Shown here: in pieces, positions 3,763 to 59,308 of the stretch
How the letters are laid out: every line of letters begins with the position of its first letter
Position numbering within the stretch: the stretch's first letter is position 1
Assembly: GCF_000715075.1 (NCBI RefSeq)
Contig: NC_134097.1
Location: 72,201,190 to 72,265,189, forward strand
From: Nicotiana tabacum
Lineage: Eukaryota; Streptophyta; Magnoliopsida; Solanales; Solanaceae
Length of the DNA stretch: 64,000 nucleotides
Direction: 5' to 3'
Notes under the pieces: generated by a model
What the model was told of the DNA's origin: nothing
Seen by the model: the letters and a program-made list of their open reading frames with translations, nothing else
Databases searched by the model: none
Made by a program: the position numbers and the translations under genes

Positions 3763-3834
3763 TTAACCGAACCTTTGCTTCAAAGGTTTCCTACATATCC
3801 CTGGCTAAAGGGGAATCAGGTTAATGTAGTTCGG
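3763..3834 (-). other. Pseudoknot-like RNA module, copy d of E1
   Basis: Minus-strand reading: helix 1 CTACAT/ATGTAG, helix 2 GGTTAA's partner TTAACC interleaved with it, inserted hairpin 1 TCCC/GGGA and inserted hairpin 2 AACCTTTG/CAAAGGTT. In the matching E3 copy helix 2 is TTGACC/GGTCAA, so one pair changed on both sides. See findings. Confidence 0.6.
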
Positions 3835-7138: not shown

Positions 7139-7197
7139 TGACCGAGCCGTGAGGCGCCTACGTATCCTTCTTTGAGGAATCAGGTCAAACGTAGTTC
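7139..7197 (-). other. Pseudoknot-like RNA module, copy c of E1
   Basis: Minus-strand helix 1 CTACG/CGTAG, helix 2 TGACC/GGTCA, hairpin 1 TCCT/AGGA, hairpin 2 GCC/GGC with a 4-nt loop. Lies just downstream of the pol remnant, the same place as copy c in E3. Confidence 0.6.
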
Positions 7198-8082: not shown

Positions 8083-9834
8083 TCACCGGCACGGATCGTC
8101 ATTAATGTTTGGCGGCTCTGGAACCTGAACCTCGATCCTATTTGTGTTGATGAGGTCTTGCACGACATTCTTCAACATCCAACATCTCTCAGTATCGTGT
8201 CCGGGAGCCCCCGAACAATATTCACAACTTGCTAAAGGGTCAATATTTTCAGGAAGGGGATTTGGTAATTTGGGCTCAATAGGATTCAATAGGCCTAACT
8301 GCCTCAATTTGTGGAACACGGTAGTATAGGATTCTCCCAGCGGAGTATATTTCTGCTTCCTCTCATTCTTAAAAGCTTGATTCCCCCGGAAACCTGACCC
8401 TGGAGGATTTCTATAGGCCCTCAGAAGTGGATATATGCTTGGTGGAGGTGGGTATGTATTTTGGGGAGCCGGCGCACGCCATTGTGCGTGTGCTGGAGAG
8501 TGGGTATAGGTTTGTGCATGATGAACGGAAAAATGGGGATCTGGCAGTGGGTAATAATGTTGTGGAGGGCTATATGGAGTGCGGGGGTAATTTTGGTAGT
8601 AGGGTCGTGGTTGGCTATAGTATGGTGATGGGCCTCTAGATCCGAACCATGCTCCCGACTCAACAGTCGTGACATCTTCTTTCTTCTCCTTCCCCAGTAC
8701 ACCCTCAGTGCCGCTCTGGATGGCCTGAGTGGTTGCTTTAATTGCCGAATAGCTCAGGATTTTGTTGGACCTGAGTCCCTCTTCGATCATACCGCCCATT
8801 TTTACTACTTCGTTGAAAGATTTACCAACTGTCGTCACTAGATGACCAAAGTAAGTTGGCTCCAAGGTTTGTAAGAAGTAGTCCACCATCTCTCCCTCTC
8901 TCATGGGAGGATCGACTCTGGCTGCTTGCTCTCTCTAGCGGAACCCGAACTCACGAAAACTTTCCCCGGGCTTCTTCCCGGTCCTCAACAACGTGAGACG
9001 GTCAGGGACTATCTCGAGATTGTATTGGAAATGACCTGCGAAAGACTGCGCCAGATCATCCCAAGTGTACCATCTGCTGGAATCCTGCCTGGTATACCAT
9101 TATAATGCTGATCCGCTCAGACTTTGGCCGAAATAAGCTATCAGCAGCTCATCCTTGCCGCATGCCCCTCTCATTTTGCTACAGAATCCCCGCAAATGCG
9201 CCATGGGATCACCGTGCCCTTCATATAGATCAAACTTAGGCATCTTGAACCCAGCCGGGAGTTGGACATCCGGAAAAGGGCATAGATCTTTGTAGGCCAT
9301 GCTGACCTGGTTGCCCAATCCGTGCAGGTTCCTGAAGGACTGCTCCAGGCTTTTGAATTTCCTCAATACCTCATCTTGTTCTGGGGCTTTAATCGGCTTT
9401 TCAATTTCTGCCGGTGCCTCCAAATGTAGATTGTAGGCATGTGGTTCGGGGGCATGGAATGTAGGCTCAGGGGGATAGTATTGCGTATCGGGAGCCTGAA
9501 GCAATGGCTCGCTGTTTGATCTTTGCAGGGTAGCTGATATGGGTCCCATAAAAGTGGGAACATTTGGTATTGGGAGAGGTTGATGGGGCGGTGGAGCTTG
9601 GGAATCATGGGGGCTTCTCTCCTGATGATAACGGTGATTCGGGAGGCTTGTTGAAGGGCCGGAGTGAGGGTATTCCGACATGTGCCCCAACGGCTCAGGG
9701 CTCTTTTGTGCTTTGGCTAGAGCTAGCTGCATTGCATTCATCTCTAATCCCATCCTTTCTATCTTTTCCATTGCTTCCTTTAACAACTGGCTCACCGGCC
9801 TTTCTTCCTCGGTACTATTCTCTGAAGTAGTCAT
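8083..9834 (-). pseudogene. gag: E1 gag, two nonsense mutations
   Basis: Encodes the capsid/nucleocapsid precursor of an Ogre-like gypsy element. It starts at the ATG at 9834, the same position relative to conserved sequence as gag in E3. Order: N-terminal helix-rich part; Pro/Gln/Tyr-rich linker; retrotransposon gag core (Phe-Lys-Met-Pro-Lys-Phe-Asp-Leu-Tyr-Glu-Gly-His-Gly-Asp-Pro, later Leu-Ser-Gly-Ser-Ala-Leu); a second Tyr/Pro-rich linker; and a knuckle-like Cys-X2-Cys-X5-His-X4-Cys near the end. Two in-frame stops break it: at about 9098 (Glu codon to TAA) and about 8937 (Trp TGG to TAG, a G-to-A change in a CTG context). The frame is otherwise open to 8083. Without the two stops it is collinear with E3 gag, so decay is slight and recent. 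Confidence 0.85.
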
Positions 9835-10118: not shown

Positions 10119-10183
10119 GGTCGAATCTTATGTGGATTGCCTACGTATCACGTCCCCGCGTGAATCAGACCTTGCGTAGTTCG
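10119..10183 (-). other. Pseudoknot-like RNA module, copy b of E1
   Basis: Minus-strand helix 1 CTACG/CGTAG; helix 2 GGTC/GACC; hairpin 1 TCACG/CGTGA (E3 copy: TCATGC/GCATGA, a compensatory change); hairpin 2 AATC/GATT. Confidence 0.6.
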
Positions 10184-11085: not shown

Positions 11086-11152
11086 GGGTTGGACCCGATG
11101 AGGGTTGCCTACGTATCTCACATCCGGTGAGAATCAAACCCGCGTAGTTCGG
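11086..11152 (-). other. Pseudoknot-like RNA module, copy a of E1
   Basis: Minus-strand helix 1 CTACG/CGTAG; helix 2 GGGTT/AACCC; hairpin 1 TCTCAC/GTGAGA with loop CGGAT; hairpin 2 ACCC/GGGT. First copy after the primer site, as in E3. Confidence 0.6.
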
Positions 11153-12687: not shown

Positions 12688-15600
12688 TGTCACACCTCCT
12701 TTTTCCGTACCCGAGAGGGTACAAGGGAGTTTTTCCAATTAAAGGACAATCGAAACGGGATTGGTTTATTTATTTCAGAGTCGCCACTTGGGAGATTTAG
12801 GGTGTCCCAAGTCACCAATTTTAATCCCGAATCGAGGAAAAGAATAACTCCATACTACAGTCTGCGTACCAGAAATCCGGATAAGGAATTCTGTTAACCC
12901 GGGAGAAGGTGTTAGGCATTCCCGAGTTCCGTGGTTCTAGCACGGTCGCTCAACTGTTATATTTGGCTTGATTATCTGATTTTATACAAATGTGAACTTA
13001 TGTGCCAATTTTATCTTTTAACCGCTTTTATCATTTACTGTTATTTTTATCAAGAATTGCAACGTTATAAAAATGTATCTCGAACCACGTTACAATCAAT
13101 GTACCCGTGGTCGTCGACACACTTTGACTCCGTTGAGATTTGGATTTGGGTCACATCAATTTGCACCTGAGTTTAAGGAAATTAAATTATTAAAGGCGCG
13201 CCTAAAGCGACTAGCGTATTTATTTTGGGTAGGACCGTGGAATTTTACTAAAACGGTCCATCCCGAAGTCTAAACAATTTTTAAAGCAAATATTTACTGA
13301 GGGCCCCGCAATTTGTATTTTATTTGGCGAGGCTCATCTCATTCTTATTTTTTAAAATGAATTTGCAACGTCATGGACACGCATCTCGAACCACGTCACA
13401 ATCAATGTACCCGTGATTAGAAACACATTTCGACTCCGTTGAGAATTGGATTTGGGTCACATAAATGTGCACCCAAGTTTAAGAAAGTAAGATTTATTAA
13501 GGCGCGTCCTAAAGAGTCTAACGTATTGTTTATTTTAGGAAGAGGCCGTGAAGGTTCATTAAACGGCCAAATCCAAAGTCTAGTCAATGGTTATGTATTT
13601 TATTGAGGGCCCCGGCGGTTTGTGATTTATTTGGCGAGGCTCGTCTCATTTTTATTTTAAAGGATAAACCTATAGTGACTATATTTTCTATTAAGTTCGT
13701 CTCTAAAATAAAAGAAAATCTCTTAATTATTTACATGCTGAAAACGTAACTTATTAGTTACTAGTTTATGGCTAATGCAATGTAAAAATTGCGATCGAGT
13801 TTGTACAAAGAAAAACTGCTTTCATTTTTATATTCTATTATTTACTAATGCTAGAACATGAGAGGGATACACAATAATATCAAAGCAGATTAACTATTCT
13901 TCAAATAATTTAAACTAGCATTATTAGATGAAGAAATCATACATATGCAGCCTCATTACTCATTAATTAATCGACTACATTTTTATACAAAGAGAGGAAA
14001 ATTAATATTCAAACACAGATCCAAACAAAAGAATTCAACAGGAACAAGAGCCTGATTAATATTTCATTTTTCGCTTCAAGCCAAGAGTGTACAAATGTGT
14101 ACCTGGAAACAGCAGTACAAGAACAAAAGAAGTAGGAGTCAGCAACAGTAATAACGCGGCAACAGCAGGTTCAGCAACACCGCAAAACCAGTAACAACCA
14201 GTAGAATGACCCAGTAATAGATTGAAAACTCAGCAGTGCAAAAGTACAATCGCAGTCAAAGCAGAAGAGAGAAAAGATACGAGATGCAGTAGTTTCTGAC
14301 TTTTGAATAACACTCGAAGAAAAGCAAACAGAATTGTTCGAGTGAAAGTTCAAATTGTCTTTCTCTTTTACGATCACAAACTCTCTCAAGTATAAAAGTA
14401 TGTCAACTCTCAAGTGTAAAAAAAATCTGTCAACTCTCCACCCTTTTTCTCTCAATCTTCAAGTTCTAGTCCCTCTTTAATGTGTCAAATGACCATATAT
14501 ATATAGCAAGACCTTGTCTTGAATTCCCAACCCCAAAATTATTCCCCCAATGACATGTTTTGTCCCACTAATTAATGTTTTCTTTATTTTAAACTTTGTC
14601 CCCCATGCCTACATTAAATAACTAACACATTCCCAACCCATTACAATTTGTCCCCCATGCCTATATTAAAAAAGTACAAGATTCCTCCCCATTATAATTT
14701 GTCCCCCATGCCTATATTAAAAAAAGTACAAGATTCCTTCCCATTATGTTTTGTCTTGTCCCCCATTACATTAAACAAGTACATCAAAAACCCCACCCCA
14801 TTATATTTGTCTCCCATGCTTAACATAAAGAATCAAAATAATGTTCAATTACCAAACTACCCCTCCGACCTTATTGCAATTACAAATCTACCCCCGAATG
14901 CAATGCAATTTACCAAATTACCCCTCTGCTCTAAACAATCAATTAATCATAACTCAACCAAAATATAGTCAAGATGACCAATTTCTCAACAATCTTCAAC
15001 AACAAATCATATGAACATGATGAACAACACAAACTCCAAATTAATGGAAATAAATCAACCATATCGGGAACCAATCCTGGTTAATTTAGATCATCAATGG
15101 ATGAACAAAGATACAACAATACCAACAACAATATGCATGATTCAATTAAATCAACAAATCACAAACAAACATAAACTCACATTAAATCACTGGATTTAAA
15201 CATGAACTTCAAACAAAGATGAACATGAATTAAATCTGTTTTTTAAGCAACAAACATGACGGATTTCTAACGATTCAAACAACATTAACATTTTCTGGAA
15301 AATTCATAACAACATGAAACAAATTGAAGAAATAATTAATTAAATTTCACTTTGAATCTAACAAGCATTAAACTAACAAATATTCACTTAAACAACAACA
15401 AAGATTCACTTAAACAACGATACGAACATGAAATAAACATGAAAAACAATTAATTAATCTTTCATTTTGAATCTGAAAAATTAATTTAACAAACAACACA
15501 TGAACATGAACTAAAAATTAATTCAAACGATAAACAAAACAAACATTTGCCGATTTTAGATTCGAAAATATCAAAACAAAATACGGACAAAATAAAACTC

Positions 15601-16925
15601 AAAAATCTACTAACCGAATCGAACAATCATACGTACGAACTGTTTCGGCGACCCTCGACCAAAGCTCAACCAAACGACGACGAACCCGAACCTAAGAAGT
15701 TGACGCCGAAGCCACAGCCACAACTGATGCGGCAGAAGTGCTGAAACGAAAGCAGCTGGGGGGTGCGTTGGGTTCGCTTGCAGCTGAAAGCAGAAGAGAC
15801 AGCTAAGGAATAGCTCGGCCATGGCGAGCTCGAGCTTTGAAGAAGATGAAGTGCAAGCAGCAGCGTGGCAGCAACCAACGGCGAAGAACTCCACAGCAGC
15901 AGCCCGCAACACGTTTGGAACGGGAAGACGAAGCAGCAGCTGCTGAAACAATGGTGTTTGCCGGAGCAACTGTGGAGGGTCGTTTGAGCAGTGACGACGT
16001 CGGGGTAGTGACAGCGTCCATGGCGGACTGTCTGGGCCATCACTGGTCGTCGACTGTTATGGCATGGATGGTGGTTGACGACGAGGGTGAGGGCAGCCAT
16101 GGACGTCGAGCTCGAACTCGAGCTTGACGTCGAACGACGAAGATGAAGTCGCGATGGATGGTGAAGCAGAAAGAGCAGCAATGGTGTGAAGGAGAAGAAG
16201 CTGGTCGTGGGGTGGAAGGGAAGTAACGAGGGCAGCCATGGACGGGGTCTTTGAGATTTTGGAGAAGAAGGAGCCAAAAATGGGTGTGGGGGCGGACCAT
16301 CTTTTAGGGTTTTTTAGGTTTTTTTTTCTTTTATTTTTTCCTTTTTTGTGTTTTGAATGAAGAGGGGTGTTGGGTCAATGGGTCAATGGGGTGGACCGGG
16401 TCGACCCGTGTGAAGTGGACTGGGTCGTGGACAATTGTTTGGGCCTGGGGTTGAAAATTGAAGAAGTGGCCCAATCCGATTTTTATTTGTATTTTTGTTA
16501 TCTTTTCTTCTTTTATTTTCTAAAACTAAATTATAAAAATACTTAAATTATTAATAAGAACTAAATTAAGTTATAAAAGCGCAAATTAACTACCAATAAC
16601 AATTAACGCATAATTTAGTAATAATTAAGCATAAAATTGTTCATTTGGACATTAAATGCTAAAAATGCAAAAGATGCCTATTTTTGTAATTTTTAATTTT
16701 TGTAAAACTAATGTAATTACTAACAATTATAGAATTAAATCCTACATGCAAATGCGACATATTTTTGTATTTTTTGTTAATTTTGCAAATAAACAAACAC
16801 AGACAAATACAAATAATAATCCAAAAATATCACAAAAGTACTCAAAATTGCACACCAAGGAAAATCATTTTATTTTGCATTTTTTGAGAGTATTTCTCAT
16901 ATAGGGCAAAAATCACGTGCTTACA
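12688..16925 (-). repeat. E1 5' LTR, 4238 bp
   Basis: Bounded by TGTCACACC at 12688 and GCTTACA at 16925, that is TG...CA on the minus strand. Its centre differs strongly from the E3 LTR but resembles solo LTR E4, so E1 and E4 form one LTR subfamily. It contains a 306-bp tandem duplication (13061-13366 and 13367-13660) and a copy of the primer-site core 12 nt long (12775-12786). Confidence 0.9.
13061..13660 (-). repeat. Tandem duplication (about 306-bp period) inside the E1 LTR
   Basis: Both halves carry ATCTCGAACCACG, AATCAATGTACCCGTG, GGATTTGGGTCACAT, AAGGCGCG and then GAGGGCCCC...GGCGAGGCTC. The E3 LTR has a single copy. The halves have diverged by substitutions, so the duplication is older than the insertion. 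Confidence 0.8.
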
Positions 16926-23238: not shown

Positions 23239-23239
23239 T

Positions 23240-26970: not shown

Positions 26971-27226
26971 TTGCTCAAATCATTTAATAGTCAACGTCAT
27001 ATAGATTACTTGACATCCGGCGTCGCCCGAATTACGATAAAATATCTCACAAGGCTGGGCAGCCCAGGACCCCTCGCAACAAAAAAACACACAACGAGAA
27101 AACAGTTCAGTGGTACACCAAAAAAAGTAACTACTCCATTACAAGTGATATATTACAAAAGTTCTTTATAAAGGGCTTAAGGACGCCCCCACAAAAGAGC
27201 AAAACAAAAATAAATACAACCAAGTC

Positions 27227-32776: not shown

Positions 32777-33239
32777 CTTGATGGCAGAAGGTATGACGGT
32801 AAAACGCAAAACAAAGAATGATGAACGGAAAAGATGAGAAGAAGAATTACAAAAACAGAGCTGAAGACCCAAGAAGAGATGACCAAAGAAGACAATACAT
32901 ACACAAGAAAGGAAATTGCTAAAGTTCTTGAAAAAATAAAACCTTCACTTATTTATAGGGTTGGGTGGCACTAGAATCGAAGCGGAGGGCTGCCAATGGC
33001 ACTAAAACCAAAGCGACAAGCAATCAGTTTCTACCTTGGGAAGACGCATAATGATGGCGCACGTGGGAGTGACGTCGTTTCCCGATAAGCTACACCATCC
33101 AGGATACCGTGGAACCCACCACTCATTCTTTCCTGATCAAACCAGTGTAATTCAATAGCCAAATTTCTCCGCGGGTATAGGCGATGTCCGGTTATCGAGG
33201 ACGTATATGGCCACGACCTCAACAAGCTGAGGGACTAAC

Positions 33240-44884: not shown

Positions 44885-47559
44885 TGTAAGCACGTGATTT
44901 TTGCCCTATATGAGAATTACTCCCAAAAAATTCAAAAATAAAACAATTTTTCTTGTTGTGCAATTTTTGTGATATTTTTGTGATATTTTGTGTAACTATT
45001 TGTATGTTTGTCTATGCATGTTTATTTGTTAAATTAATAAAAAATACAAAAATAGGCATCTTTTGCATTTTTAGCATTTAATGTCCAAATGAACAATTTT
45101 ATGCTTAATTATTACTTAATTGTGCGTTAATTGTTATTGAAAGTTAATTTGCGCTTTTATAACTTAATTTAGTTCTTAATAATAATTTAAGTACTTTTAT
45201 AATTTAGTTTTAGAAAAATAAAAGAAGAAAAGAGAACAAAAATACAAAGAAAAATCGGATTGGCCCACTTCTTCAATTTCAAACCACAGGCCCAAATAAT
45301 TGCCCAACTTTCCCCATGACCCGGTTCACTTCAAACCGGGTCGACCCGGTCCGCTCCATTAACCCAACACCCCTTCTTCATTTTTGTCCAACACAAAACA
45401 AAACCAAAAAATAAAAAATAAAAGGTGAATTATCACTATTAATAGTTTTTTTTTGTTTTTTTATATATATAAAACATCCGAAAATATTTTATTTTATTTT
45501 ATTTTTATTTTTATTTTTTTAAAAAAATATATATAATAATTTCGGGAATGATTTAAAAAAAATAAGAAAAAAGGGAAATATTGAATAAAAGAAATATAAA
45601 AGTAAAAATAGGTGAAATTCTCTTCTTTTTTAAAAAAAAAAAGTAAAAGAATGTAGAAAATTTAAAAAATAAAAAGTTTTGTGGAAATTTTTAAAAAATT
45701 TAAAAGTAAAAGAAGGTTGAAATTAAAAAATAAATATAAATGTATCTGAAAATTTAAAAAATTTAAAGTAATTGAAAGTAGCATTTTTAAAAGAAAAAGA
45801 AAAGATAGTGGTTTGTTTTTTTAAAGAAAAGTTAAATAAAGTGAGATTCTCTTTTAAAAAAATAAAAAGTGGGATTTTAAATAAGATAAAGTAATTAAAG
45901 TTGGAATTTTAAAAATAAAAGTAAATAAAGGTGAGATTTCTTTTTCTAAAAAAATAAAAGCAATTTGTAAGTGGGATTTCTTTTAATTAAAAAAATAATA
46001 AAATAATAAAAAACAAATTTGAAAAATTCGAAAATTTTGCTATAAATAGAAGAGAAAATTTAGGAAGAAGGTGGAAAAAAGAGGAAAAACTAGATAGAGA
46101 GAAGAAGAAAAGAGGGGGCGGAGAGAGCAGTATACACTCGATATACACTCTGGATACACAGAATATACGAGGACAGAATCATTTTGGAGAGAGTAAAAAA
46201 GATAGAAACAAATTTTCTGAAATATTTAGAGCGGAAGAACACCATAGAGAGTTCAAATCTAGAAAGAAAAAATAAAGAGAAATTTCCACACTATTTGTCT
46301 TCTCCATTTTTACTAGTTTTCTCCGTGTTGCTGGGATTTCTGGACTGAGGTGTTGAAGCTACTGTGTTGGGCTTTCTGCTGCTGTATGTTGCTGTGTTAC
46401 ATACTACTTTACTGATCTTCTTCTTCTTGTACTGTCATTTCCAGGTACACATTTGTACACTCTCCGCTTGAAGCGAAATGAAATAATAATCAGGTTTTGT
46501 TCCTGTTGAATCCCTCCTGTTTAGATTTGTGTTTGAATATAATTTTCCTTTCTTTGTATAAAAATGTAGTCGATTAATTAATGAGTAATGGGCTTGCATA
46601 TGTATAACTTCTTCATCTAATAATTTTAGTTTAAATTAATCAAATACTAGTTAATTTGTTTTTGATATTATGGTGTGTCAATCTCATGTTCCAGTATTAT
46701 TGAATAATAGAATATAGAATGAAAGCAATTTTTCTTTGTACAAACTCGATCGCAATTTTCCATTCACATTAGTCGTAAACTAATAACTAATAAGTTATTT
46801 TTTTTCAGCATGTAATTAATTGAGAAATTTTATTTTATTTTTAGAGACAAACTTAATAGAAGAAATGTAGTCACTATAGGTTTATCTTTAAAAATAAGAA
46901 TGAGAGGAGCCTCGCCAAATAAAAATACAAAATTGCGGGGCCCTCAGTAAATATTTACTTTATATTGCTTAGACTTCGGGATGGACCGTTTAGCAAAATT
47001 CCACGGTCCTACCCAAAGTAGATGATACGCTAGTCGCTTTAGGTGCGCCTTTAATAATTTAATTTTCTTAAACTCGGGTGCACATTGATGTAACCCAAAT
47101 CCAAATCTCAACGGAGTCAAAGTGTGTCGAAGACCACGGGTACATTGATTGTAACGCGGTTCGAGATACATTTTCGCAACGTTGCAATTCCTTGTAAAAA
47201 ATAATAATAATTATTATGAAAGCGGTAAAAAGTTAAAATTTGCACATAAGTTCATATTTGTATAAAATCAGATAATCAAGCCGAATATAACAGTTGAGCG
47301 ACCGTGCTAGAACCACGGAACTCGGGAATGCCTAACACTTTCTCCCGGGTTAACAGAATTCCTTATCCGGATTTCTGGTACGCAGACTGTAATATGGAGT
47401 CATCCTTTTCCTCGATTCGGGATTAAAATTGGTGACTTGGGACACCCTAAATCTCCCAAGTGGCGACTCTGAAATAAATAAACCAATCTCATTTCGATTG
47501 TCCTTTAATTGGAAAAAACTCCTTGTACCCTCGCGGGTACGGAAAAAGGAAGTGTGACA
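44885..47559 (+). repeat. E3 5' LTR, 2675 bp
   Basis: TGTAAGCACGTG...GTGTGACA. The first 550 bp and last 650 bp resemble the E1/E4 LTRs, while the middle (45420-46300) is an unrelated AT-rich block, defining a different LTR subfamily. Contains a TATA box and a 12-nt copy of the primer-site core at 47461-47472. Confidence 0.93.
46041..46049 (+). promoter_or_regulatory. TATA box of the E3 5' LTR
   Basis: TATAAATAG in a TTGCTATAAATAGAAG context, followed by a purine-rich stretch. The same box is at 57814-57822 in the 3' LTR. Best promoter candidate of the element; transcription should start about 30 nt downstream. Confidence 0.65.
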
Positions 47560-48834: not shown

Positions 48835-48901
48835 CCCGAACTACGCGGTTTTGATTCTCACCGGATGTGAGATACGTAGGCAACCCTCATCGGCTCCAAC
48901 C
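48835..48901 (+). other. Pseudoknot-like RNA module, copy a of E3
   Basis: Helix 1 CTACG (48841-48845)/CGTAG (48875-48879); helix 2 GGTT (48847-48850)/AACC (48898-48901); hairpin 1 TCTCAC (48856-48861)/GTGAGA (48867-48872). The downstream hairpin is weak here (ACCC/GGCT) but perfect in E1. Confidence 0.6.
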
Positions 48902-48964
48902 CCCATTTTTGCTAAAATAACCAAAAACAAATAAATAATAATAAAAATAATATGTCATAAAGAA

Positions 48965-49617
48965 GTCAGGTGATGTTGTTTTGTCATAAATAGCCGAATG
49001 TTCCCGAAAGGGACGCCGGAAGGCTGACTTTGCATAAACAGACACCTTTGGGTCATTTTAGGATTTTGATCCAGTTGACCCACTCAGCCTTAAAAATCTT
49101 CGTCCCCGAGATGTTGAAAGGCCGTGTTTGCAATATTGAGTTTGCTAATTTGGAAAACGATAAAAAGAGTCATGAATAAGTCAGGTGATGTTGTTTTGTC
49201 ATAAATAGCCGAATGTTCCCGAAAGGGACGCCGGAAGGCTGACTTTGCATAAACAGCCACCTTTGGGTCATTTTAGGATTTTGATCCAGTTGACCCACTC
49301 AGCCTTAAAAATCTTCGTCCCCGAGACGTTGAAAGGTCGTGCTTGCAATATTGAGTTTTCTAATTTGAAAATTGATAAAAAGAGTCATAAATAAGTCAGG
49401 TGATGCTGTTTTGTCATAAATAGCCGAATGTTCCCTAAAGGGACGCCGAAAGGCTGACTTTGCATAAACAGCCACCTTTTGGGTCATGTTTAGGATTTTT
49501 TGTCCAGTGGACCCACACAGCCTTAGAAATCTTCGTCTCCGAGGCGCTAAAGGGCCGTGTTTGCAACACCAGTTTTTTTCGTAATTTTGAAAAGAAAAAA
49601 AAACAAAGAGTCAGCGG
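48965..49617 (+). repeat. Leader tandem repeat, about 215-bp unit, 3 copies, with paired GNRA hairpins
   Basis: Units begin GTCAGGTGATG at 48965, 49180 and 49395, with a fourth partial start at 49618. Each contains GTTCCC-GAAA-GGGAC directly followed by GCC-GGAA-GGC (49000-49024, 49215-49239, 49430-49454). In the third copy the second loop is GAAA, still of GNRA type, while the first loop became TAAA. Confidence 0.85.
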
Positions 49618-50018
49618 TCAGGTGAGTACCGTTTGAATTTTGTCATAATAAGCCGAGCCAGCTTCGGCCGCGTCTTAAACCGTTCTCGCCGAAATAGCCT
49701 TAGAGTATCTTTCAGTTGTCGAAAGGTTATTTTCGTAAAAGAATGGACAAGTTTGTAAAGTGTCAAAATAATCCTCCCCAACCTCAAAATTCATGTGAGA
49801 TTTGGAAGGGGCAACATTTGCAAAAATAGCTGTTTGGTTGCATTTGACAAACGGGGAAAGGAAGCTGGCCGTTTGTTTTTGAGTTTGTAAATCTTTTGAT
49901 TAGAATATGTGGGTTGTTTGATTTTTGAGTTTGTAGGTCATCTTCAAACCTTTGAAACTCAGTTTGTTTTAATATGAAAATTGAAAAAAAATGTTCATTA
50001 TTGTTTATCTATTATTGG

Positions 50019-50085
50019 TCCGAACTACGCAAGGTCTGATTCATGCGGGGGCATGATACGTAGGCAATCTCCATAAGATTCGACC
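50019..50085 (+). other. Pseudoknot-like RNA module, copy b of E3
   Basis: Helix 1 CTACG (50025-50029)/CGTAG (50059-50063); helix 2 GGTC (50033-50036)/GACC (50082-50085); hairpin 1 TCATGC/GCATGA (50041-50056, loop GGGG); hairpin 2 AATCT/AGATT (50066-50080). Confidence 0.65.
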
Positions 50086-50385
50086 ACAACAAAAAAAAAG
50101 AAAAAAAGAAAAAGAAAGTGAATAAATAAAAAAGGCACAAAGAATAAATAAAAAAGGGTGGAATGAAGGGTTTCACGCGGGAGGATGCACGCGGTAGAAA
50201 AAAAAACATGTTAGAAATGGTTAACTGCCTAAGAAAATTGCGTTCCCCAACATGCAATTGCAATATCTGTTAAAACTTTAACGCTAACAAGTTTGTTGTT
50301 TGTCCAAATCCAAACAGTTAGTTGTTAAAGCGTACTGGCACCATACCATTATCAAACAATATCAAAAGGGATTATACCAGAAAGC

Positions 50386-52271
50386 ATGACTGGCTCAGAA
50401 AATAGTGTTGAGTCGGAAGGGGCGGCACATCAGATACTGAAGGAGACGATGGCCAATATAGAAAAAATGAGATCGGAAATGCATGAAATGCAGCTAGCCA
50501 TGGCTAAGGCGCAAAAGGGGCCCGAACCACTCGTCACTCCTACTTCCCCACCGGGATACACACCGAAATACCCTTTACCCGGCCCTTCAACGAGCTTCCA
50601 CGTTGCCCAATACTACCAAGGGGATACTTCCTATAATCCCCAAGCTCCACCACCCAAACAAAACCCTCCTCCGCCAATCATCCCCGTCGTCGGGGCACCT
50701 CCGCCAGCCACGTTGCAAAGATCCTCCAACGAGCCATTGTTTCAGGCTCACGATACGCAATACTATCCCCCTGAGCCCACATTCCATGCCCCCGAACCAC
50801 ATGCCTACAATCCACACTTGGAGGTACCGGCAGAGATTGAAAAGCCGGTTAAAGTCCCAGAAGAAGAGGAGGTATTGAGGAAGTTCAAAAGCCTGGAGCA
50901 GTCCTTCAGGAACCTGCACGGATTGGGCAACCAGGTCAGTGTGGCCTACAAAGATCTATGCCCTTTCCCGGACGTCCAACTCCCGGCTGGGTTCAAGATG
51001 CCTAAGTTTGATTTATATGAAGGGCACGGTGACCCCATGGCACATTTGCGGGGTTTCTGTAGCAAAATGAGAGGGGCAGGCGGTAAAGATGAACTGCTGA
51101 TAGCCTATTTTGGCCAAAGTCTGAGCGGATCGGCACTCGAATGGTATACCAGGCAGGATTCCAGCAGATGGTACACTTGGGATGATCTGGCGCAGGCTTT
51201 CGCAGGTCATTTCCAATACAATCTCGAGATAGTCCCTGACCGTCTCACGTTGTTGAGGACCGGGAAGAAGCCCGGGGAAAGTTTTCGCGAGTTCGGGTTC
51301 CGCTGGAGAGAGCAAGCAGCCAGAGTTGATCCTCCCATGAGAGAGGGAGAAATGGTGGACTACTTCTTGCAGACACTGGATCCAACTTACATTGGTCACT
51401 TGGTGACGACGGTTGGGAAATCCTTCAATGAAGTAGTAAAGATAGGTGCATGATAGAGGAGGGTCTGAGGTCTGACAAAATCCTGAATTACTCAGCACTC
51501 AAGGCAACAACCCAGGCTATTCAGAGCGGCACGAGAGGTGCGCTGGGAAGAAAGAAGAAAGAAGAAATTGCCACGATTGAGGCAAGCAGTTGGTCCAGGT
51601 CTGGTAAACCATACTACAACCAACCCAGACCCCACAGGCCAAACTACCCATACAGCCCACCACAATACTACTATCCACCTCAAGAACCACACTTCTCCGT
51701 GTACCAAGCCCAAACATACACTCAGCCTCCGGTTCACCCGCAATGGCGTGCGCCGGCTCCCCATAACACACATACACCATCGCAAAACACCTATCCACCG
51801 CCAAGAGCTTATAGGAACCCTCAAGGGGCAGGTTTCCGGGGAAATCAGGCTTTCAGAAATGAAAGAATACAAAGAACATTCACTGAGTTGGGAGAAACCT
51901 ATACTGCCGTGTTCCACAAATTAAGGCAGTTAGGCTTGTTGAGTCCTGTTGAGCCCAGATTGCCAAATCCCCTTCCCAAAAATATGGACCACTCGGTAAG
52001 CTGTGAGTATTGTTCGGGGGCTCCCGGACATGATACCGAGAAGTGTTGGAAGTTGAAACATGTAGTACAAAATCTTATTGACACCAACAAGATTGAGGTT
52101 CAGACACCAGAGGCGCCCAACATCAATCAGAACCCGTTGCCGGCACACCTTGAAACCCACATGATTGAGCTAGTGCACGAAGGAGGGGAGCTAAAGAAAC
52201 CCTCACAAACAGTGATGATGATTCGTGTCGGTTCAAAAGAAATGTTAACCAGTGGAAAAACGGTGGTATAG
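50386..52271 (+). pseudogene. gag: E3 gag, one 1-bp frameshift
   Basis: Capsid/nucleocapsid precursor of an Ogre-like element. It opens at ATG 50386 and runs 355 codons. Domain order: N-terminal helical segment (Met-rich, residues 1-45), Pro/Tyr-rich linker (46-150), gag core (about 180-355; Lys-Phe-Asp-Leu-Tyr-Glu-Gly-His-Gly-Asp-Pro, Leu-Ser-Gly-Ser-Ala-Leu-Glu-Trp-Tyr, Phe-Gln-Tyr-Asn-Leu-Glu). At about 51447 one G is missing compared with E1, moving the rest into another frame (51450-52271). That part has a Tyr/Pro/His-rich linker and a knuckle-like Cys-X2-Cys-X5-His-X4-Cys (Cys-Glu-Tyr-Cys, Gly-His-Asp-Thr-Glu-Lys-Cys). Apart from the frameshift, about 628 codons stay open. The protease that should follow is gone. 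Confidence 0.88.
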
Positions 52272-52583
52272 TTGGAAAAGGTGGATGACAAGCCAGTTAT
52301 GGTGTTGGAAAAGGGTCCAACGAGGCAGATGTGCAGTTTGTGGGGTTGAAAGCAAAAATCAACAATTGAACGGCTACTCCTCTTCCTATACGAAGGGAGT
52401 CTTGGTAGTGGGCTCTGATTTTCTTTTTTGTTGTCTGGATTATTCCAGGGTTGTAATCCAGATTTTTCTTGTGCTCGCCAAAGTGTGAAACCTTGCTATC
52501 CCGTATTTTAATAAAGTGAAAGTTTTTTTTTCTCATTCCTTATTTTGTTTTAATTTTTCTTCTTATTTTTCTCTTCTGAACAG
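52272..52583 (+). other. Segment between gag and pol, candidate intron
   Basis: Ogre elements are known to carry a spliced intron between protease and RT. Here a pyrimidine-rich run ends in CTTCTGAACAG (to 52583), directly before readable pol sequence, a good acceptor. A possible donor is GGTAGTGGGC at about 52408, conserved in E1. A Leu-Glu-Lys-Val stretch at its start may be a protease leftover. Confidence 0.45.
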
Positions 52584-53250
52584 TTCTCTTTATACTGGTT
52601 CTAATGACATGGCATGCACGACGGATCTTCAACCTAGTCTAAAAAATCAATTTGATTTCGAACTTATAGTACAAGATTGTGATGATAAGTCGGAATACGA
52701 TAAGGATGAAGCCTTCGAAGAAATTAACAGAGAGTTGAGCCAATTTGAAAAAGAGCCCAACTGACACGGAAACTGTCAATCTAGGGGATGCGGATGACAT
52801 CAGGGAAGCTAAGATAAGCGTCCATATGGAACCAAACATCAGGGAAGAACTAATCAAAGCACTTACTGAATTCAAAACATTTTGCATGGTCATACGACGA
52901 CATGCCGGGTTGAAGCACCAATTTAGTGGTTCAAAAATTGCCCACTGACCCAGCATTTCACCCCGTCAAGCAAAATTGAGGAAGTCCAAAACCGACGTAA
53001 GTGTGAAGATTAAGGAAGAAGTAACCAAAAAGCTGAACGCTAAGGTTATTCGGGTCGCTCGATATCCTGATTGGTTGGCTAATGTGGTGCCAGTGTAAAA
53101 AAAAAATAGGAGATGGAAAATCCGGGTGTGTGTTGATTATTGCAATCTAAACAGAGCAAGCCCAATGACGCTTTGTGATCAACAAATATCTAAGGGAAAT
53201 GCGTCGACATGGCTATCAATTCTGACGCAGTTAAGAGATATTATGTATGA
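52584..53250 (+). pseudogene. E3 pol remnant: RT N-terminus fused to the last pol codons
   Basis: Starts after the candidate splice acceptor. An acidic stretch (Asp-Phe-Glu-Leu-Ile-Val) is followed by a typical gypsy RT lead-in (Asn-Ile-Arg-Glu-Glu-Leu-Ile-Lys-Ala-Leu), then Trp-Leu-Ala-Asn-Val-Val-Pro-Val and Arg-Val-Cys-Val-Asp-Tyr-Cys-Asn-Leu-Asn-Arg-Ala-Ser-Pro. Right there (about 53175-53200) it jumps to Asp-Met-Ala-Ile-Asn-Ser-Asp-Ala-Val-Lys-Arg-Tyr-Tyr-Val and stop at 53248, the C-terminus of pol. The RT YxDD box, RNase H and integrase catalytic parts are missing. Three frame changes also occur. The breakpoint differs from that in E1. Confidence 0.75.
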
Positions 53251-54810
53251 TTGTAATTGTTGTTTGTTTGTATTTAGCATTTATCAGAGAATGAAATGAT
53301 GGAGACAATTCTTTCTTCTATCCAAACACTTTAACCTTTGCTTCCCCTTTTGAGCCTTATTTATTCTTTCATACCCCTCTTTTGGAATCAGTAATGAAAA
53401 TGAAAGAAAGAAAAAAAAGTAATGATAATAAGAACAAAAGAAAAGTCACACACAAAAAAAAAAGGAATTGGGAACTACGTTTGACCTGATTCCTCGAAGA
53501 GGATACGTAGGCGCCTCACGGCTCGGTCATAGTGTAACATAGGCATAAGATAACATAGTGTGACAAAATAAAAATCCCCAAGCAAGAAAAACTGGGGCAG
53601 AAGTTGGCGCTTGTAATTTTGGCAAGAAAGTTTGATTCCAAGAGTTGTACTATCTTACCCCTAAAAATTATTTTTGAACTTTGGATACCCTTTCTCCTTT
53701 CAGCCATACACAAAAACCCCTATTGATGTCCAAAAAGACCTCCCGATCAGTAACTGAGAAGTGCTAAGTCAATGCAAATGGAAGTCGGGAATAACACTCT
53801 GATCCCCAGCAAAGAAGAAGATCATAAGCTGGAAATGAATTGATAGCCGAAAGAATCCCCCAACAAAGAGAGTCATATCGGCAGCACTCCAATCCCCAGC
53901 TGAAATCCCCAGCTGAAAAATAAAATAAAATGAGAGAGTCTTATCGGTGAAAACCTTCACAGGCACCATAAGGCGACGGGAGTTGAGAGAAATAAGAGAG
54001 TCTTATTAGTGAAAACCCCTCGAAGGGCACTATGAGGCGACAAGACAAGATTGGCGGGAAGGATCCAAATTTGGCAAAGAGTTGAGTGCCTATTTATCCC
54101 CAGCAACATGAGGCTGTCTGAAGGGTTGATTGATATAAATAGACTGGGTTGATTAATCCGGAATGCGTGACATGATCGTTGGGATCAGTTATATCATTCA
54201 GATAAGTTCTTTTCTTTCCTTTTCCCCAACATTTTGTTCAGAAAGACTTCTTCTTTTTCTATTTTTGCAATTCTTCACTTTTTCATTTCTTGGTTTAAAG
54301 ATTTTACCTCCCCAACAGTTTGTTTTTGAAAAGGATTTTCAGAGTTTACTACCAGTTGCCAAAATGATGCAAAGCAAAAGGCGAATACAATGGGCCAAAG
54401 ATAAGGCGATAAAGTGAAAAGAAGTTGGTCGCAAACACAGAGTGGGGAAGGAAGAAAAGGAAAATTCATCCCCAACAAGTTTTGATAGCTTAATGAAGCA
54501 CAGAGCGGGGAAGAGGGAAAGGGAAAAACCATCCCCATCAGGAGTGGCACGACCACTCACCATGTGTTAAAACTAACAAATTTTCTTTGATTTGAAGCAG
54601 GAAAAGAAAATCTTGTTAATGGCGAAAAAACATGCCACAAGGAAAAGCACCAACACTGGGGCAGAAAATTTTCTACCATTTGTCGAAAATTTTCTCGAAG
54701 GAACGAGGAAATCAATTCAAGTTTTAAGAGATAGCAAGACAACACGATTCTAAGAAAGACAGTCGGAGGTAAGACAATTCCAAGTTTTTGAATAGGATAA
54801 CAAGACAACT
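53251..54810 (+). other. E3 3' untranslated region, no gene
   Basis: Homologous in parts to E1 5491-7450. Contains pseudoknot module c and short purine-rich tracts. Frames here are broken in E1. Confidence 0.65.
53471..53530 (+). other. Pseudoknot-like RNA module, copy c of E3
   Basis: Helix 1 CTACG (53475-53479)/CGTAG (53506-53510); helix 2 TGACC (53482-53486)/GGTCA (53525-53529); hairpin 1 TCCTC/GAGGA (53491-53503); hairpin 2 GCC/GGC (53513-53522, loop TCAC). Confidence 0.65.
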
Positions 54811-55240
54811 CGAATAGGATATTCTGGGTTCATCCGCCCTCGAATAGGATATTCTGGGTTCATCCGCCCTCGAATAGGATATTCTGGGTTCATCCGCCCT
54901 CGAATAGGATATTCTGGGTTCATCCGCCCTCGAATAGGATATTCTGGGTTCATCCGCCCTCGAATAGGATATTCTGGGTTCATCCGCCCTCGAATAGGAT
55001 ATTCTGGGTTCATCCGCCCTCGAATAGGATATTCTGGGTTCATCCGCCCTCGAATAGGATATTCTGGGTTCATCCGCCCTCGAATAGGATATTCTGGGTT
55101 CATCCGCCCTCGAATAGGATATTCTGGGTTCATCCGCCCTCGAATAGGATATTCTGGGTTCATCCGCCCTCGAATAGGATATTCTGGGTTCATCCGCCCT
55201 CGAATAGGATATTCTGGGTTCATCCGCCCTCGAATAGGAT
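54811..55240 (+). repeat. Perfect 30-bp tandem array, 14 units plus 10 bp
   Basis: Unit: CGAATAGGATATTCTGGGTT followed by CATCCGCCCT. All 14 units appear identical, so the expansion is very recent or the copy number was affected by assembly. A partial, diverged unit (AATAGGATAACAAGACAACT) precedes it. Because 30 is a multiple of 3 and no stop lies in one reverse frame, a spurious long ORF results. Confidence 0.97.
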
Positions 55241-55250
55241 TTTATTTTCT

Positions 55251-55680
55251 AAATTGTTGTTGAAGACAGGCGCCCACCTGAATAACATGAGGAATACTTT
55301 TTGTCTGTTCATTTCATATATTAGGCGCCCACCTGTATAACAAGGGAATACATTCCACGCCTTTACCAATAGGAGACGCACTTCCTAGGTCTAGTTTTGC
55401 CAATAGGAGACGCATTTCCTAAGTTTTACCCATAGGAGAGGCATTTCCTCCTAACTTTATTTTATCCTTAGGAGACGCACTTCCTAAGTTACTTTTACCT
55501 CAGAGGAGACGCACTTCCTAAATTAAAGATTTCATTAATGGGAGACGCAACTTCCTAAGTTTAGTTTTACCGATAGGAGAAGCACTTCCTAAGTTCATTT
55601 TACCCATAGGAGATGCATTTCCTCCTAAGTTTAGTTTTACCCATAGGAGATGCATTTCCTCCTAAGTTAGTATTGAAGTT
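55251..55680 (+). repeat. Degenerate tandem repeat of about 37-40-bp units
   Basis: About nine units with AGGAGACGCACTTCCTAAGT and TTTTACCCAT variants from about 55362, preceded by two GGCGCCCACCTG units. Each unit is imperfectly self-complementary (AGGAG...TTCCT), so it could form short hairpins. Confidence 0.8.
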
Positions 55681-55727
55681 GGGAGTCCGCCCATATAACA
55701 AAGGCATACATTTCTGTCCTTTCATTC

Positions 55728-55890
55728 TGTTCTAGGTCGCCCACCAGTAAAATGCGGGAATACTTTCTGTTCTAGGTCGCCCACCAGTAAAATGCGGGAA
55801 TACATTCTGTTCTAGGTCGCCCACCAGTAAAATGCGGGAATACATTCATGTTCTAGGTCGCCCACCAGTATAATGCGGGAATACATTCAG
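55728..55890 (+). repeat. Tandem repeat of about 41-bp units, 4 copies
   Basis: Units carry TTCTAGGTCGCCCACCAGTA and AAATGCGGGAATAC and are nearly identical; the last has TATAATG for AAAATG. Confidence 0.9.
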
Positions 55891-56464
55891 TCTTTTTCAT
55901 TACAAGCATTGAAGTTGGGAGCCCGTCCATATAATAGAGGCATACATTTCAAGATCAAGTCAGAAAATAATAAAATAGAGGGTTACAACAAGAATCCCCA
56001 GCAGGAAACAATAAAAATCCCTAGCACCGGGAAACAGAAGGTTGCAACAAGATGTCCCAGCACAAATTCAGGCGCATGAGTCAAAAGGAAGAAAGGACGC
56101 GTCTTGAAAGAAGCAGCTGGTGAACATTAAATCATGCCCAGCATAACAAGTTTGATGAAGAAAGCCGTACCCACCAGAGGAACCGCCGAAAAGCTTGATG
56201 AAGAAAGCCATGTCCCCAGCGGACCGAGCAAAATGATGAAAACTGGTATTCAGAAAAGCAAAGGGCCAGTATCATTCCAAAATTCAAGGAAGAAAAGCAC
56301 CGAAGGAAACACAAGCCGACAAGAAAGTAAGGCAACAAGAACAAATTTTAGTCTAGCCTAGCTTCTTGTTTTCTTTTAAGCACGGTGTAACAAGGAGATC
56401 GATAAGCAGTGATAACAGCATGCAACAACAGTAACATCGCAGTCCCACGGTAGTCCCAGCTACC
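55891..56464 (+). other. E3 3' untranslated region, no gene
   Basis: Matches E1 3835-4400 in reverse. One unit of the sequence that forms the 60-bp array in E1 sits at about 55910-55955. Confidence 0.6.
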
Positions 56465-56474
56465 AAAAACTTCC

Positions 56475-56545
56475 CGAACTACATTGACCTGATTCCTGTT
56501 TAGCCCAGGATATGTAGGAAACCTTTGAAACAAAGGTTCGGTCAA
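56475..56545 (+). other. Pseudoknot-like RNA module, copy d of E3
   Basis: Helix 1 CTACAT (56479-56484)/ATGTAG (56512-56517); helix 2 TGACC (56485-56489)/GGTCA (56540-56544); hairpin 1 TCCTG/CAGGA (56494-56510); hairpin 2 AACCTTTG/CAAAGGTT (56520-56538). Confidence 0.65.
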
Positions 56546-56654: not shown

Positions 56655-59308
56655 TGTAAGCACGTGATTTTTGCCCTATATGAGAATTACTCCCAAAAAA
56701 TTCAAAAATAAAATAATTTTTCTTGGTGTGTAATTTTTGTGATATTTTGTGATATTTTGTGTAACTATTTGTATGTTTGTCTATGCATGTTTATTTGTTA
56801 AATTAATAAAAAATACAAAAATAGGCATCTTTTGCATTTTTAGCATTTAATGTCCAAATGAACAATTTTATGCTTAATTATTACTTAATTGTGCGTTAAT
56901 TGTTATTGGAAGTTAATTTGCGCTTTTATAACTTAATTTAGTTCTTAATAATAATTTAAGTACTTTTATAATTTAGTTTTAGAAAAATAAAAGAAGAAAA
57001 GAGAACAAAAATACAAAGAAAAATCGGATTGGGCCACTTCTTCAATTTCAAACCACAGGCCCAAATAATTGCCCAACTTTCCCCATGACCCGGTTCGCTT
57101 CAAACCGGGTCGACCCGGTCCGCTCCATTAACCCAACACCCCTTCTTCATTTTTGTCCAACACAAAACAAAACCAAAAAATAAAAAATAAAAGGTGAATT
57201 ATCACTATTAATAGTTTTATTTTTTGTTTTTTTATAAATATAAAAAATCCGAAAATATTTTATTTTATTTTATTTTTATTTTTTATTTTTTAAAAATATA
57301 TATATAATAATTTCGGGAATGATTTAAAAATAATAAGAAAAAAGGGAAGTATTGAATAAAAAAAAATATAAAAGTAAAAATAGTTGAAATTCTCTTCTTT
57401 TTTTTTTAAAAAAAAGTAAAAGAATGTAGAAAATTTAAAAAAATAAAAAGTTTTGTGGAAATTTTTAAAAAATTTAAAAGTAAAAGAAGGTTGGAATTAA
57501 AAAATAAATATAAAGGTATCTGAAAATTTAAAAAATTTAAAGTAATTGAAAGTAGTATTTTTAAAAGAAAAAGAAAAGATAGTGGTTTGTTTTTTAAAGA
57601 AAAGTTAAATAAAGTGAGATTCTCTTTTAAAAAAATAAAAAGTGGGATTTTAAATAAGATAAAGTAATTAAAGTTGGAATTTTAAAAATAAAAGTAAATA
57701 AAGGTGAGATTTCTTTTTCTAAAAAAATAAAAGCAATTTGTAAGTGGGATTTCTTTTAATTAAAAAAATAATAAAATAATAAAAAACAAATCTGAAAATT
57801 TCGAAAATTTTGCTATAAATAGAGGAAATTTAGGAAGAAGGTGGAAAAAAGAGGAAAAACTAGATAGAGAGAAGAAGAAAAGAGGGGGCGGAACTCTGGA
57901 TACACAGAATATACGAGGACAGAATTCATTTTGGAGAGAGTAAAAAAGATAGAAACAAATTTTCTGAAATATTGAGAGCGGAAGAACACCATAGAGAGTT
58001 CAAATCTAGAAAGAAAAAATAAAGAGAGATTTCCACACTATTTGTCTTCTCCATTTTTACTAGTTTTCTCCGTGTTGCTGGGATTTCTGGACTGAGGTGT
58101 TGAAGCTACTGTGTTGGGCTTTCTGCTGCTGTATGTTGCTGTGTTACATACTACTTTATTGATCTTCTTCTTCTTGTGCTGTCATTTCCAGGTACACATT
58201 TGTACACTCTCCGCTTGAAGCGAAATGAAATAATAATCAGGTTTTGTTCCTGTTGAATCCCTCCTGTTTAGATTTGTGTTTGAATATAATTTTCCTTTCT
58301 TTGTATAAAAATGTAGTCGATTAATTAATGAGTAATGGGCTTGCATATGTATAACTTCTTCATCTAATAATTTTAGTTTAAATTAATCAAATACTAGTTA
58401 ATTTGTTTTTGATATTATGGTGTGTCAATCTCATGTTCCAGTATTATTGAATAATAGAATATAGAATGAAAGCAATTTTTCTTTGTACAAACTCGATCGC
58501 AATTTTCCATTCACATTAGCCGTAAACTAATAACTAATAAGTTATTTTTTTTTCAGCATGTAATTAATTGAGAAATTTTCTTTTATTTTTAGAGACAAAC
58601 TTAATAGAAGAAATGTAGGCACTATAGGTTTATCTTTAAAAATAAGAATGAGAGGAGCCTCGCCAAATAAAAATACAAAATTGCGGGGCCCTCAGTAAAT
58701 ATTTGCTTTATATTGCTTAGACTTCGGGATGGACCGTTTAGCAAAATTCCACGGCCCTACCCAAAGTAGATGATACGCTAGTCGCTTTAGGCGCGTCTTT
58801 AATAATTTAATTTTCTTAAACTCGGGTGCACATTAATGTGACCCAAATCCAAATCTCAACGGAGTCAAAGTGTGTCGAAGACCATGGGTACATTGATTGT
58901 AACGCGGTTCGAGATACATTTTCGGAACGTTGCAATTCCTTGTAAAAAATAATAATAATAATTATGAAAGCGGTAAAAAGTTAAAATTTGCACATAAGTT
59001 CATATTTGTATAAAATCAGATAATCAAGCCGAATATAACAGTTGAGCGACCGTGCTAGAACCACGGAACTCGGGAATGCCTAACACCTTCTCCCGGGTTA
59101 ACAGAATTCCTTATCCGGATTTCTGGTACGCAGACTGTAATATGGAGTCATCCTTTTCCTCGATTCGGGATTAAAATTGGTGACTTGGGACACCCTAAAT
59201 CTCCCAAGTGGCGACTCTGAAATAAATAAACCAATCCCATTTCGATTGTCCTTTAATTGGAAAAAACTCCCTTGTACCCTCGCGGGTACGGAAAAATGAG
59301 GTGTGACA
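56655..59308 (+). repeat. E3 3' LTR, 2654 bp
   Basis: Near-identical to 44885-47559; lacks the 28-bp GAGAGAGCAGTATACACTCG segment of the 5' LTR. TATA box at 57814-57822. Primer-site-like 12-mer at 59209-59220. Followed by TSD GTAGT. Confidence 0.93.

Follow-up and report, generated by a model that had tools for sequence, protein, structure and literature searches.

The window analysed here, 64,000 nt of Nicotiana tabacum contig NC_134097.1 (positions 72,201,190 to 72,265,189), contains two LTR retrotransposons, E1 and E3, that each carry four copies of a small RNA module. E3 lies on the plus strand between a 5' LTR (44885..47559) and a 3' LTR (56655..59308), which are 96.9% identical over 2,690 nt and flanked by a 5-bp target duplication (GTAGT). 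Inside are a gag region in two reading frames (50386..52271, PF03732 Retrotrans_gag) and, downstream of it, remnants of RT and INT (52609-53244). E1 lies on the minus strand: its 3' LTR (1..3653) is cut by the window start, and the part of its 5' LTR that can be aligned to the 3' LTR (13277..16925) is 98.2% identical to it over 3,655 nt; by comparison with E3, the 5' LTR probably continues to about 12690. Protein matches place its gag region (two ORFs) at 8083..9834 and RT/INT remnants at 7445-7793. Neither element has an ORF1 match, and pol is present in both as remnants only.

The module is an RNA of about 65-75 nt in which the helices follow each other in the order P1, P2 5' strand (x), P3 hairpin, P1', P4 hairpin and P2' (x'). 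A search for the pattern GAACTAC..TGATTC..TA(C/T)GTAG, allowing at most one substitution per block, gave eight matches in the window, all without substitution. These lie at most 3 nt from the starts given in a preliminary description, and the covariance model R1 (trained on a set that included all eight) likewise finds the known modules and no ninth at E up to 0.5. The plus-strand modules of E3 are a (48838..48902, x' at 48898-48902; 68.5 bits with R1), b (50022..50085, P2 GGTC/GACC, x' at 50082-50085; 84.6 bits), c (53472..53529, P2 TGACC/GGTCA, x' at 53525-53529; 59.5 bits) and d (56476..56545, P2 TTGACC/GGTCAA, x' at 56540-56545; 67.2 bits). Their minus-strand counterparts in E1 are a (11086..11150, with a perfect P2 of GGGTT/AACCC; 74.2 bits), b (10119..10182, GGTC/GACC; 77.9 bits), c (7139..7197, TGACC/GGTCA; 57.1 bits) and d (3763..3832; 58.9 bits), the last with a P2 of TTAACC/GGTTAA that is compensated relative to E3. 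Both d copies lie about 110 nt upstream of the 3' LTR. The helices are as first described, except in E3 copy a: its P2, in the register of the family, pairs GGTTT with AACCC around an internal T.C mismatch, and the GGTT/AACC pairing proposed earlier requires a one-base shift.

Several unpaired letters are kept, namely GAA, TGAT (J2/3), T, G(C/A) and YC, the last forming J4/2 directly before P2' in most aligned rows. RNAalifold recovered P1, P3 and P4 unaided. At 31 hand-chosen sites the module forms an island of conservation, with a mean identity of 0.73-0.81 against 0.43-0.62 in the flanks and 0.48 in shuffled sequence.

For the pairing tests, modules were collected with patterns in which GAACTAC, TGATTC and TACGTAGG are fixed or nearly so, and the constancy of these letters and of most of P1 is therefore partly a matter of choice; P2, P3 and P4 are absent from the pattern, except for TC at the start of P3. 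Most aligned modules lie within the first 4.7 Mb of contig C1; to these were added the eight of the window and one from a deer-gut contig (discussed below). The 117 matches were reduced to 115 for a swap test by dropping the copy on a duplicate of the deer contig and a module with more than two mismatches; 114 modules (the deer module being dropped by the anchor rule) were aligned and gave 92 distinct rows. A separate alignment, A1, holds 38 hand-chosen modules, among them the deer module, which is misaligned at x'.

In A1, 92.6% of 712 cells are paired against 81.3% after shuffling (the observed value was reached in 0 of 500 shuffles), and sliding the partners by 1-3 columns leaves only 21-39% paired. 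For P2, with its four pairs, 95.4% of cells are paired, and each pair shows two-sided changes. Of the 1,830 column pairs in the alignment of 92 distinct modules, the six that covary most strongly all coincide with predicted pairs (in the order P2, P4, P3, P2, P3, P2). P2 thus holds ranks 1, 4 and 6, with E-values of 0.01, 0.18 and 2.7 under a tree-aware null; over all pairs this null leaves one at E<0.05 and four at E<0.2. In the swap test, 98 of the 115 modules have a Watson-Crick run of at least 4 between x and their own downstream part; when partners were swapped in from modules having another x, 13.6% of 10,530 combinations do, though in the largest group (33 modules with x ending in GACC) 41.5% of swaps reached a run of 4. 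An earlier version that allowed G-U pairs discriminated weakly (mean run 4.54 own, 3.90 swapped). Two-sided changes are seen even inside single classes and without any mispair: in class b at P2 (GC 20, AT 7) and P4 (TA 23, CG 4), in class c at P2 (CG 17, TA 7) and in class a at P2 (TA 26, CG 5). Since the letters of P1 and P3 were used to assign the classes, independence of the class rule holds for P2 and P4 alone.

These tests bear on whether there is an RNA function at all, since the modules could instead be DNA-level sites (for protein binding or recombination) or plain duplicates, with the pairing a by-product of common ancestry. Related sequences do share changes by descent, and few pairs survive the tree-aware null; in two of the five measures on A1 the shuffles were not beaten (two-sided-change pairs 53/500, further pair types 446/500), and pairs drawn further out than the core do not hold (sixth pair of P1, 36/92; outer pairs of P2, 5/54 and 52/92). 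Nonetheless, the compensatory changes within single classes, the swap test, the poor pairing of the slid controls and the constancy of strand and position make this explanation highly improbable. Pairing is kept while letters change, and therefore the module RNA very probably serves the element in some way. The earlier proposal that this pseudoknotted RNA acts in cis and is under selection is supported by the pairing in P2, the covariation ranks and the conservation island. The conditions named beforehand as refuting it (helix 2 without covariation above phylogenetic background, or unpaired in most copies) do not refute it, albeit at modest tree-aware E-values.

The hosts are Ogre-type (Tat clade) Ty3 LTR retrotransposons. 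An additional RNase H in pol is a mark of the Tat clade, and an extra ORF with a plant mobile domain occurs in 57% of Ogre (PMC6317226). The relative L017 has both: RVT_1 and RT_RNaseH_2/RT_RNaseH are followed by a further RNase H match (PF13456, 580-698), and its ORF1, upstream of gag, matches PF24924 (1.3e-24) and PF10536 (5.2e-19).

Across 21 fetched pieces, which span subfamilies with Gags 32-48% matching a reference copy, the modules are on the sense strand and in constant order: a precedes ORF1, b precedes gag, c follows integrase and d lies further along. There are up to four per Ogre RNA, and apparently five in some copies. Module b follows the end of ORF1 by about 190-250 nt in all five pieces with enough sequence past ORF1, and c follows the integrase end or remnant by 37-385 nt in all nine Ogre copies whose piece covers this stretch. 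One of the two copies assigned at first to the leader, b, follows ORF1 and precedes gag in those relatives where an ORF1 is present. The modules do occur in elements that have lost pol (E1 and E3), but they are not peculiar to these, since pol-bearing relatives carry them too. Two pieces without detectable ORF1, gag or pol keep three (L020) and four (L023) modules, so the need for the module is probably in cis, on the element's own transcript. The full set is not found in every copy, because the gag match of L031 (8098, 41%) has no module upstream, even with filters off, and L019 has no d in 4.9 kb past c; in L015, L020, L027, L028 and L030 there is no d within the piece in the 2-4 kb past c.

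These positions could point to translation control (internal entry, shunting or reinitiation), by which ORF1 and gag would both be made from one RNA. Module b starts 348-364 nt upstream of the gag ATG in four copies (E1, E3, L017 and L032), and the distance from the start of a to ORF1 is 229-624 nt in five pieces. This is an improbable role, however, as c and d lie downstream of the coding sequence and modules persist in pieces without detectable genes.

In the genome of 4.0 Gb a module pattern has 56,263 matches and the reversed pattern none, which is more than expected by chance. Three combinations of class d helix 2 were counted: TTGACC/GGTCAA 6,520 times, TTGACC/GGTTAA 190 times and TTAACC/GGTTAA 1,835 times. 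The R1 search that covered the window and the deer-gut contig gave 58 matches in all, 57 of which score 47-85 bits; the remaining one (L025, 27-94, 31 bits) is a copy before ORF1. Four pattern matches in IMG/VR (L009-L012) were rejected as homologues, with no fitting x' or hairpins on reading; by hand estimate about ten chance matches are expected, and R1 scored L009 at 19.9, L011 at 16.4 and L010 at 10.5 bits, with nothing for L012 at E up to 1. IMG/VR scans by protein gave no pattern matches for hAT or integrase, and five for gag, none of them a relative. No description of the module was found among the matches listed in the CC-licensed PMC literature; the main Ogre papers appeared in subscription journals.

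The module fits no Rfam family: none matched in the window at the gathering score, and at E up to 1 the 14 module-bearing loci gave a single match, to an unpaired lncRNA model (16.8 bits against a cut-off of 50), and none to a ribozyme family. In L033, two weak Rfam matches lie elsewhere in the locus and none at the module. The lack of such matches counts against a self-cleaving ribozyme of the HDV kind, which forms a nested double pseudoknot in the order P1 P2 P3 P1' P4 P2', the same as in the module. HDV ribozymes further require P1.1, between L3 and letters past P1', and a catalytic C in J4/2 several letters before P2'. In contrast, the P3 loop of the module varies in length and letters without a constant partner for P1.1, J4/2 has just two letters (YC) and J2/3 has four (TGAT). 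The module moreover occurs several times in an RNA that has to remain intact, and four cuts would destroy the genomic RNA. With helix order alone in common, we rejected this identity as extremely improbable.

One module was found outside Ogre, 52 nt past the stop of a hAT transposase on the deer-gut contig (x GGCCTT against x' AAGGCC; 51.2 bits with R1, though it is in the training set). This is a single case, and the contig is visibly chimeric with Bacilli DNA. As carriers in the window's genome, hAT elements were rejected: of 69 listed homologues 20 were examined, and none has the module by pattern in 0.3 kb past the match, nor by R1 at E up to 1. Neither RNA packaging nor reverse transcription is part of the hAT life cycle, so this copy favours a general mRNA function.

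We tentatively regard the module as a cis-acting RNA-fate element, giving protection or export to the Ogre transcript, with packaging as a close rival. Each copy, by its rigid fold or by binding a host factor, would prevent the retention or degradation of a transcript that is very long, partly spliced and multi-ORF. The placement of b and c within a few hundred nt past the ends of ORF1 and pol is cited for this reading. In Nicotiana benthamiana, an NMD-sensitive reporter is stabilised by a readthrough structure and by a frameshift element (PMC6277124), and PMC12786077 describes export of MusD RNA through a pseudoknot-bearing element. Against protection or export, PMC6277124 also indicates that absence of structure past the stop protects from NMD as well; a and d do not adjoin a known stop codon, b and c outlast the loss of ORF1 and pol, and the hAT case is a lone chimeric contig. 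It is unlikely that the module is a more general passport for plant transposon RNA, used at Ogre ORF boundaries and in another plant's hAT, with a host factor engaged so that RNA of both classes escapes decay or nuclear retention.

Alternatively, the modules could be packaging (or dimerisation or retrosome-targeting) signals bound by Gag or its zinc knuckle, several copies raising the specificity for full-length RNA; this is a plausible, if still doubtful, account. Non-autonomous copies keep modules but lose coding sequence, as expected for mobilisation in trans, and according to PMC4974528 Ty1 RNA has a 5' pseudoknot that contains a major binding site for Gag, and retrotransposition is impaired when this pseudoknot is disrupted. 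The same text adds that a packaging role of this pseudoknot could not be demonstrated; redundant sites would not obviously be retained individually at four positions, and the copy beside a hAT transposase gene does not fit. Dimerisation through kissing loops was rejected, as reading alignment A1 gave no constant palindromic P3 loop.

For plant LTR retrotransposons, little is known about cis-acting RNA signals. With a covarying module whose pattern is matched more than 50,000 times in a single plant genome, leaf assays can directly test how a major genome component is packaged, exported and stabilised, and structural work gains a small pseudoknot.

Among the closest known systems, ENE triple-helix stability elements lie close to the 3' end in RNAs of plant transposable elements, have been reported in hAT elements and are defined by a U-rich internal loop that pairs with an A tract; the module has no such loop on reading of A1 and also occurs in the leader. 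Viral xrRNAs are small, compact pseudoknotted folds, often in tandem copies, and resemble the module in this, but its pairing order is unlike the flaviviral kind and it has no Rfam match. The MusD transport element (MTE) and the IAP RTE are, like the module, cis RNAs of LTR elements, the MTE with a pseudoknot; they differ in being mammalian and acting via NXF1, a receptor not employed by plants according to a review (PMC12786077). Finally, the 5' pseudoknot of Ty1 and the UTR packaging determinants of Ty3 likewise place a pseudoknot or UTR signal in the genomic RNA of an LTR element, but (PMC4974528, PMC11381356) Ty1 has a single pseudoknot running from the RNA 5' end to a stretch downstream of the PBS, whereas the Ogre module is local and repeated.

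The module, a pseudoknotted RNA of about 65-75 nt, is very probably a functional cis-acting RNA. All eight copies that the preliminary description reported in E1 (minus strand) and E3 (plus strand), two Ogre-type Ty3 retrotransposons, were located, with positions agreeing to within 3 nt. A covariance model (R1) trained on 38 modules, the window's eight included, retrieves these eight and none besides in the 64 kb at E-values up to 0.5, so that E1 and E3 carry four each, as had been claimed. Across 4.0 Gb of the genome (700 contigs) the module pattern gives 28,534 + 27,729 matches, and the reversed pattern 0.

The 5' half of the module consists of GAA, the 5' strand of helix P1 (CTAC(G/A)), a short joiner and x (the 5' strand of the pseudoknot helix P2), which abuts TGAT. 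In the 3' half follow hairpin P3 (closed by TC/GA), a single T, the 3' strand of P1, a G followed in most cases by C or A, hairpin P4, usually YC, and lastly x' (the 3' strand of P2). P1 and P2 are interleaved with one hairpin in each of two loops, which bears out the proposed H-type pseudoknot with two inserted hairpins. RNAalifold, run on a MAFFT alignment of the 38 modules, predicts P1, P3 and P4 unaided; it is unable to predict pseudoknots, and a four-pair P2 was added to its structure for the pairing counts. With this P2, 92.6% of 712 cells are paired (against 81.3% in shuffles, 0/500 as high), compared with 21-39% when the partners are slid out of register. Two-sided changes number 113 (against 40.7 in shuffles, 0/500 as high), and two of the five measures are no better than shuffles (pairs with a two-sided change, 53/500; further pair types, 446/500). 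P2 itself is 95.4% paired in this alignment, and each of its four pairs shows two-sided changes.

Covariation was assessed on 92 distinct modules using APC-corrected G statistics over all 1,830 column pairs; in the null, the parsimony changes of each column were placed randomly on a FastTree tree (100 simulations). Covariation in helix 2, which had been proposed as a check, is found: the six highest ranking of the 1,830 pairs belong to P2, P4, P3, P2, P3 and P2, at tree-aware E-values of 0.01, 0.06, 0.09, 0.18, 1.3 and 2.7, respectively. Most of these are not significant singly, and the match of the top six to the fold model is the stronger result. P1 contributes little evidence because it is nearly constant (its single varying pair ranks 24, with GC 76, AT 9, AC 5 and others 2), a constancy partly due to the search pattern. 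Pairs drawn beyond the core are unsupported for P1 (sixth pair, 36/92 paired) and P2 (outer pairs, 52/92 and 5/54), as are the innermost P3 pair (34/71) and the P4 end pairs (58/92, 10/73 and 7/16).

Counts were redone inside the four sequence classes a-d (defined by P1 and P3 letters) to reduce class identity as a driver. Exchanges persist within class a (P2 TA 26/CG 5; P4 CG 27/AT 3, one mispair), class b (P2 GC 20/AT 7; P4 TA 23/CG 4), class c (P2 CG 17/TA 7) and the ten rows of class d (P4 CG 8/TA 2); those in P3 of class b (TA 18/CG 9) are not independent of the class rule. Watson-Crick runs of at least 4 form between x and its own module in 98/115 cases, against 13.6% of 10,530 when x is swapped among modules, although the swap test is weak for the largest group (x ending GACC, 41.5% when swapped) because its complement is common. 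For helix 2 of class d, three of the four combinations of x and x' were counted genome-wide: TTGACC occurs with GGTCAA 6,520 times, TTAACC with GGTTAA 1,835 times, and TTGACC with GGTTAA (G.U) 190 times.

The LTRs of E3 (44885-47559 and 56655-59308, plus strand) are 96.9% identical to each other and the target duplication is 5 bp (GTAGT); the LTRs of E1 are 98.2% identical over the alignable part. An LTR fragment at 40402-41109 (minus strand), beginning TGTAAGCACGTG, shares about 80% identity with the LTR of E1. In the pol-bearing relative L017, ORF1 carries a plant mobile domain and is accompanied by a gag-pro ORF, RT with an additional RNase H, and integrase; PMC6317226 gives these features for Ogre and Tat.

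Placing the L017 proteins on 21 10-kb pieces and the window yields the coding-strand order module a, ORF1, module b, gag-pro-RT-integrase, module c, module d. ORF1 is present in seven pieces, that of L017 being cut upstream of it; module a starts 229-624 nt upstream of ORF1 in five of the remaining six, and the sixth (L025) has a weak copy (31 bits) about 500 nt upstream. Some subfamilies have two class a modules in the leader (L028 at 2184 and 3001; L036 at 48 and L037 at 53), which differ in P2 (GGGTC/GACCC or GGCCC, and CGGTT/AACC). Module b lies about 190-250 nt downstream of ORF1 in all five pieces with enough sequence behind it, and upstream of gag in 13/14 gag-bearing copies. In L031 (gag match 8098-9387, plus strand, 41% to L017) the piece shows no module upstream, even when the filters of the model are switched off; this copy either is without module b or is truncated. 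Module c is located 37-385 nt past the integrase end or remnant in 9/9 Ogre copies with that stretch in the piece, and nine copies (L014, L016, L017/L018, L021, L023, L024, L026, E1 and E3) have d 1.8-4.0 kb further on. No d is seen within 4.9 kb downstream of c in L019, nor in L015, L020, L027, L028 and L030, where the pieces stop 2-4 kb past c. The L031 and L019 exceptions leave our assessment unchanged, as truncation or decay is to be expected in individual old copies. The 3' untranslated part of the elements has tandem arrays between c and d, in E3 (54810-55240, plus strand, 30-bp unit) and E1 (4360-5490, minus strand, unit about 60 bp).

Modules are retained in distant pieces (L015, L016, L028 and L030, with a Gag identity to L017 of 32-48%) and in two pieces where neither ORF1 nor gag nor pol is detected (three in L020, four in L023). 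Among hand-chosen diverged copies the module forms an island of conservation: mean pairwise identity is 0.81 for a, 0.79 for b, 0.73 for c and 0.79 for d, against 0.43-0.62 for the 70-nt flanks and 0.48 for shuffled sequence. Further Ty3-like DNA of the window (about 16926-33800) comprises repeated blocks and 89-bp tandem arrays (18253-19280 and 25882-27001), with integrase matches (39-43% to L017) between 16.9 and 25.7 kb. It is without a module, showing that the module is not common to all Ty3 elements.

Two IMG/VR contigs (L009 at 5902, L011 at 10358) share a near-identical stretch matching the three sequence blocks of the pattern without hairpins or x', probably by chance (R1 scores of 20 and 16 bits). 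When the genomes of 84,980 prokaryote species were scanned with the pattern, the single match fell in a contig of a Bacilli MAG that came from the jejunum of roe deer (JAFUBK010000065.1; L033 7650-8000 / L095). The contig end encodes a 637-aa hAT transposase (PF05699, PF14372), and 52 nt past its stop lies a module in which x is GGCCTT, x' is AAGGCC, and both P3 and P4 are clear. Beyond it come AT-rich DNA and then bacterial-type genes, which we take to be a truncated ssb and rpsR. With its plant-type hAT gene and Bacilli genes the contig looks chimeric, and we regard it as dietary plant DNA joined to bacterial DNA. In the genome of the window, 20 hAT homologues were inspected and none has a module, and the link between hAT and the module rests on this single chimeric contig. 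If real, it would imply a function that is not packaging or reverse transcription alone.

Among the possible readings we tentatively place first a role in RNA fate (stability or export), given the hAT copy, the sites past the ORF1 and pol ends, and the retention in gene-less pieces. No Rfam family matches the module and, in line with the preliminary description, no account of it was found among the openly licensed papers listed in literature searches. The module forms a new family within a broad kind of RNA that is already known, the cis-acting retroelement RNAs, and its unusual feature is that it recurs at set positions in the element.
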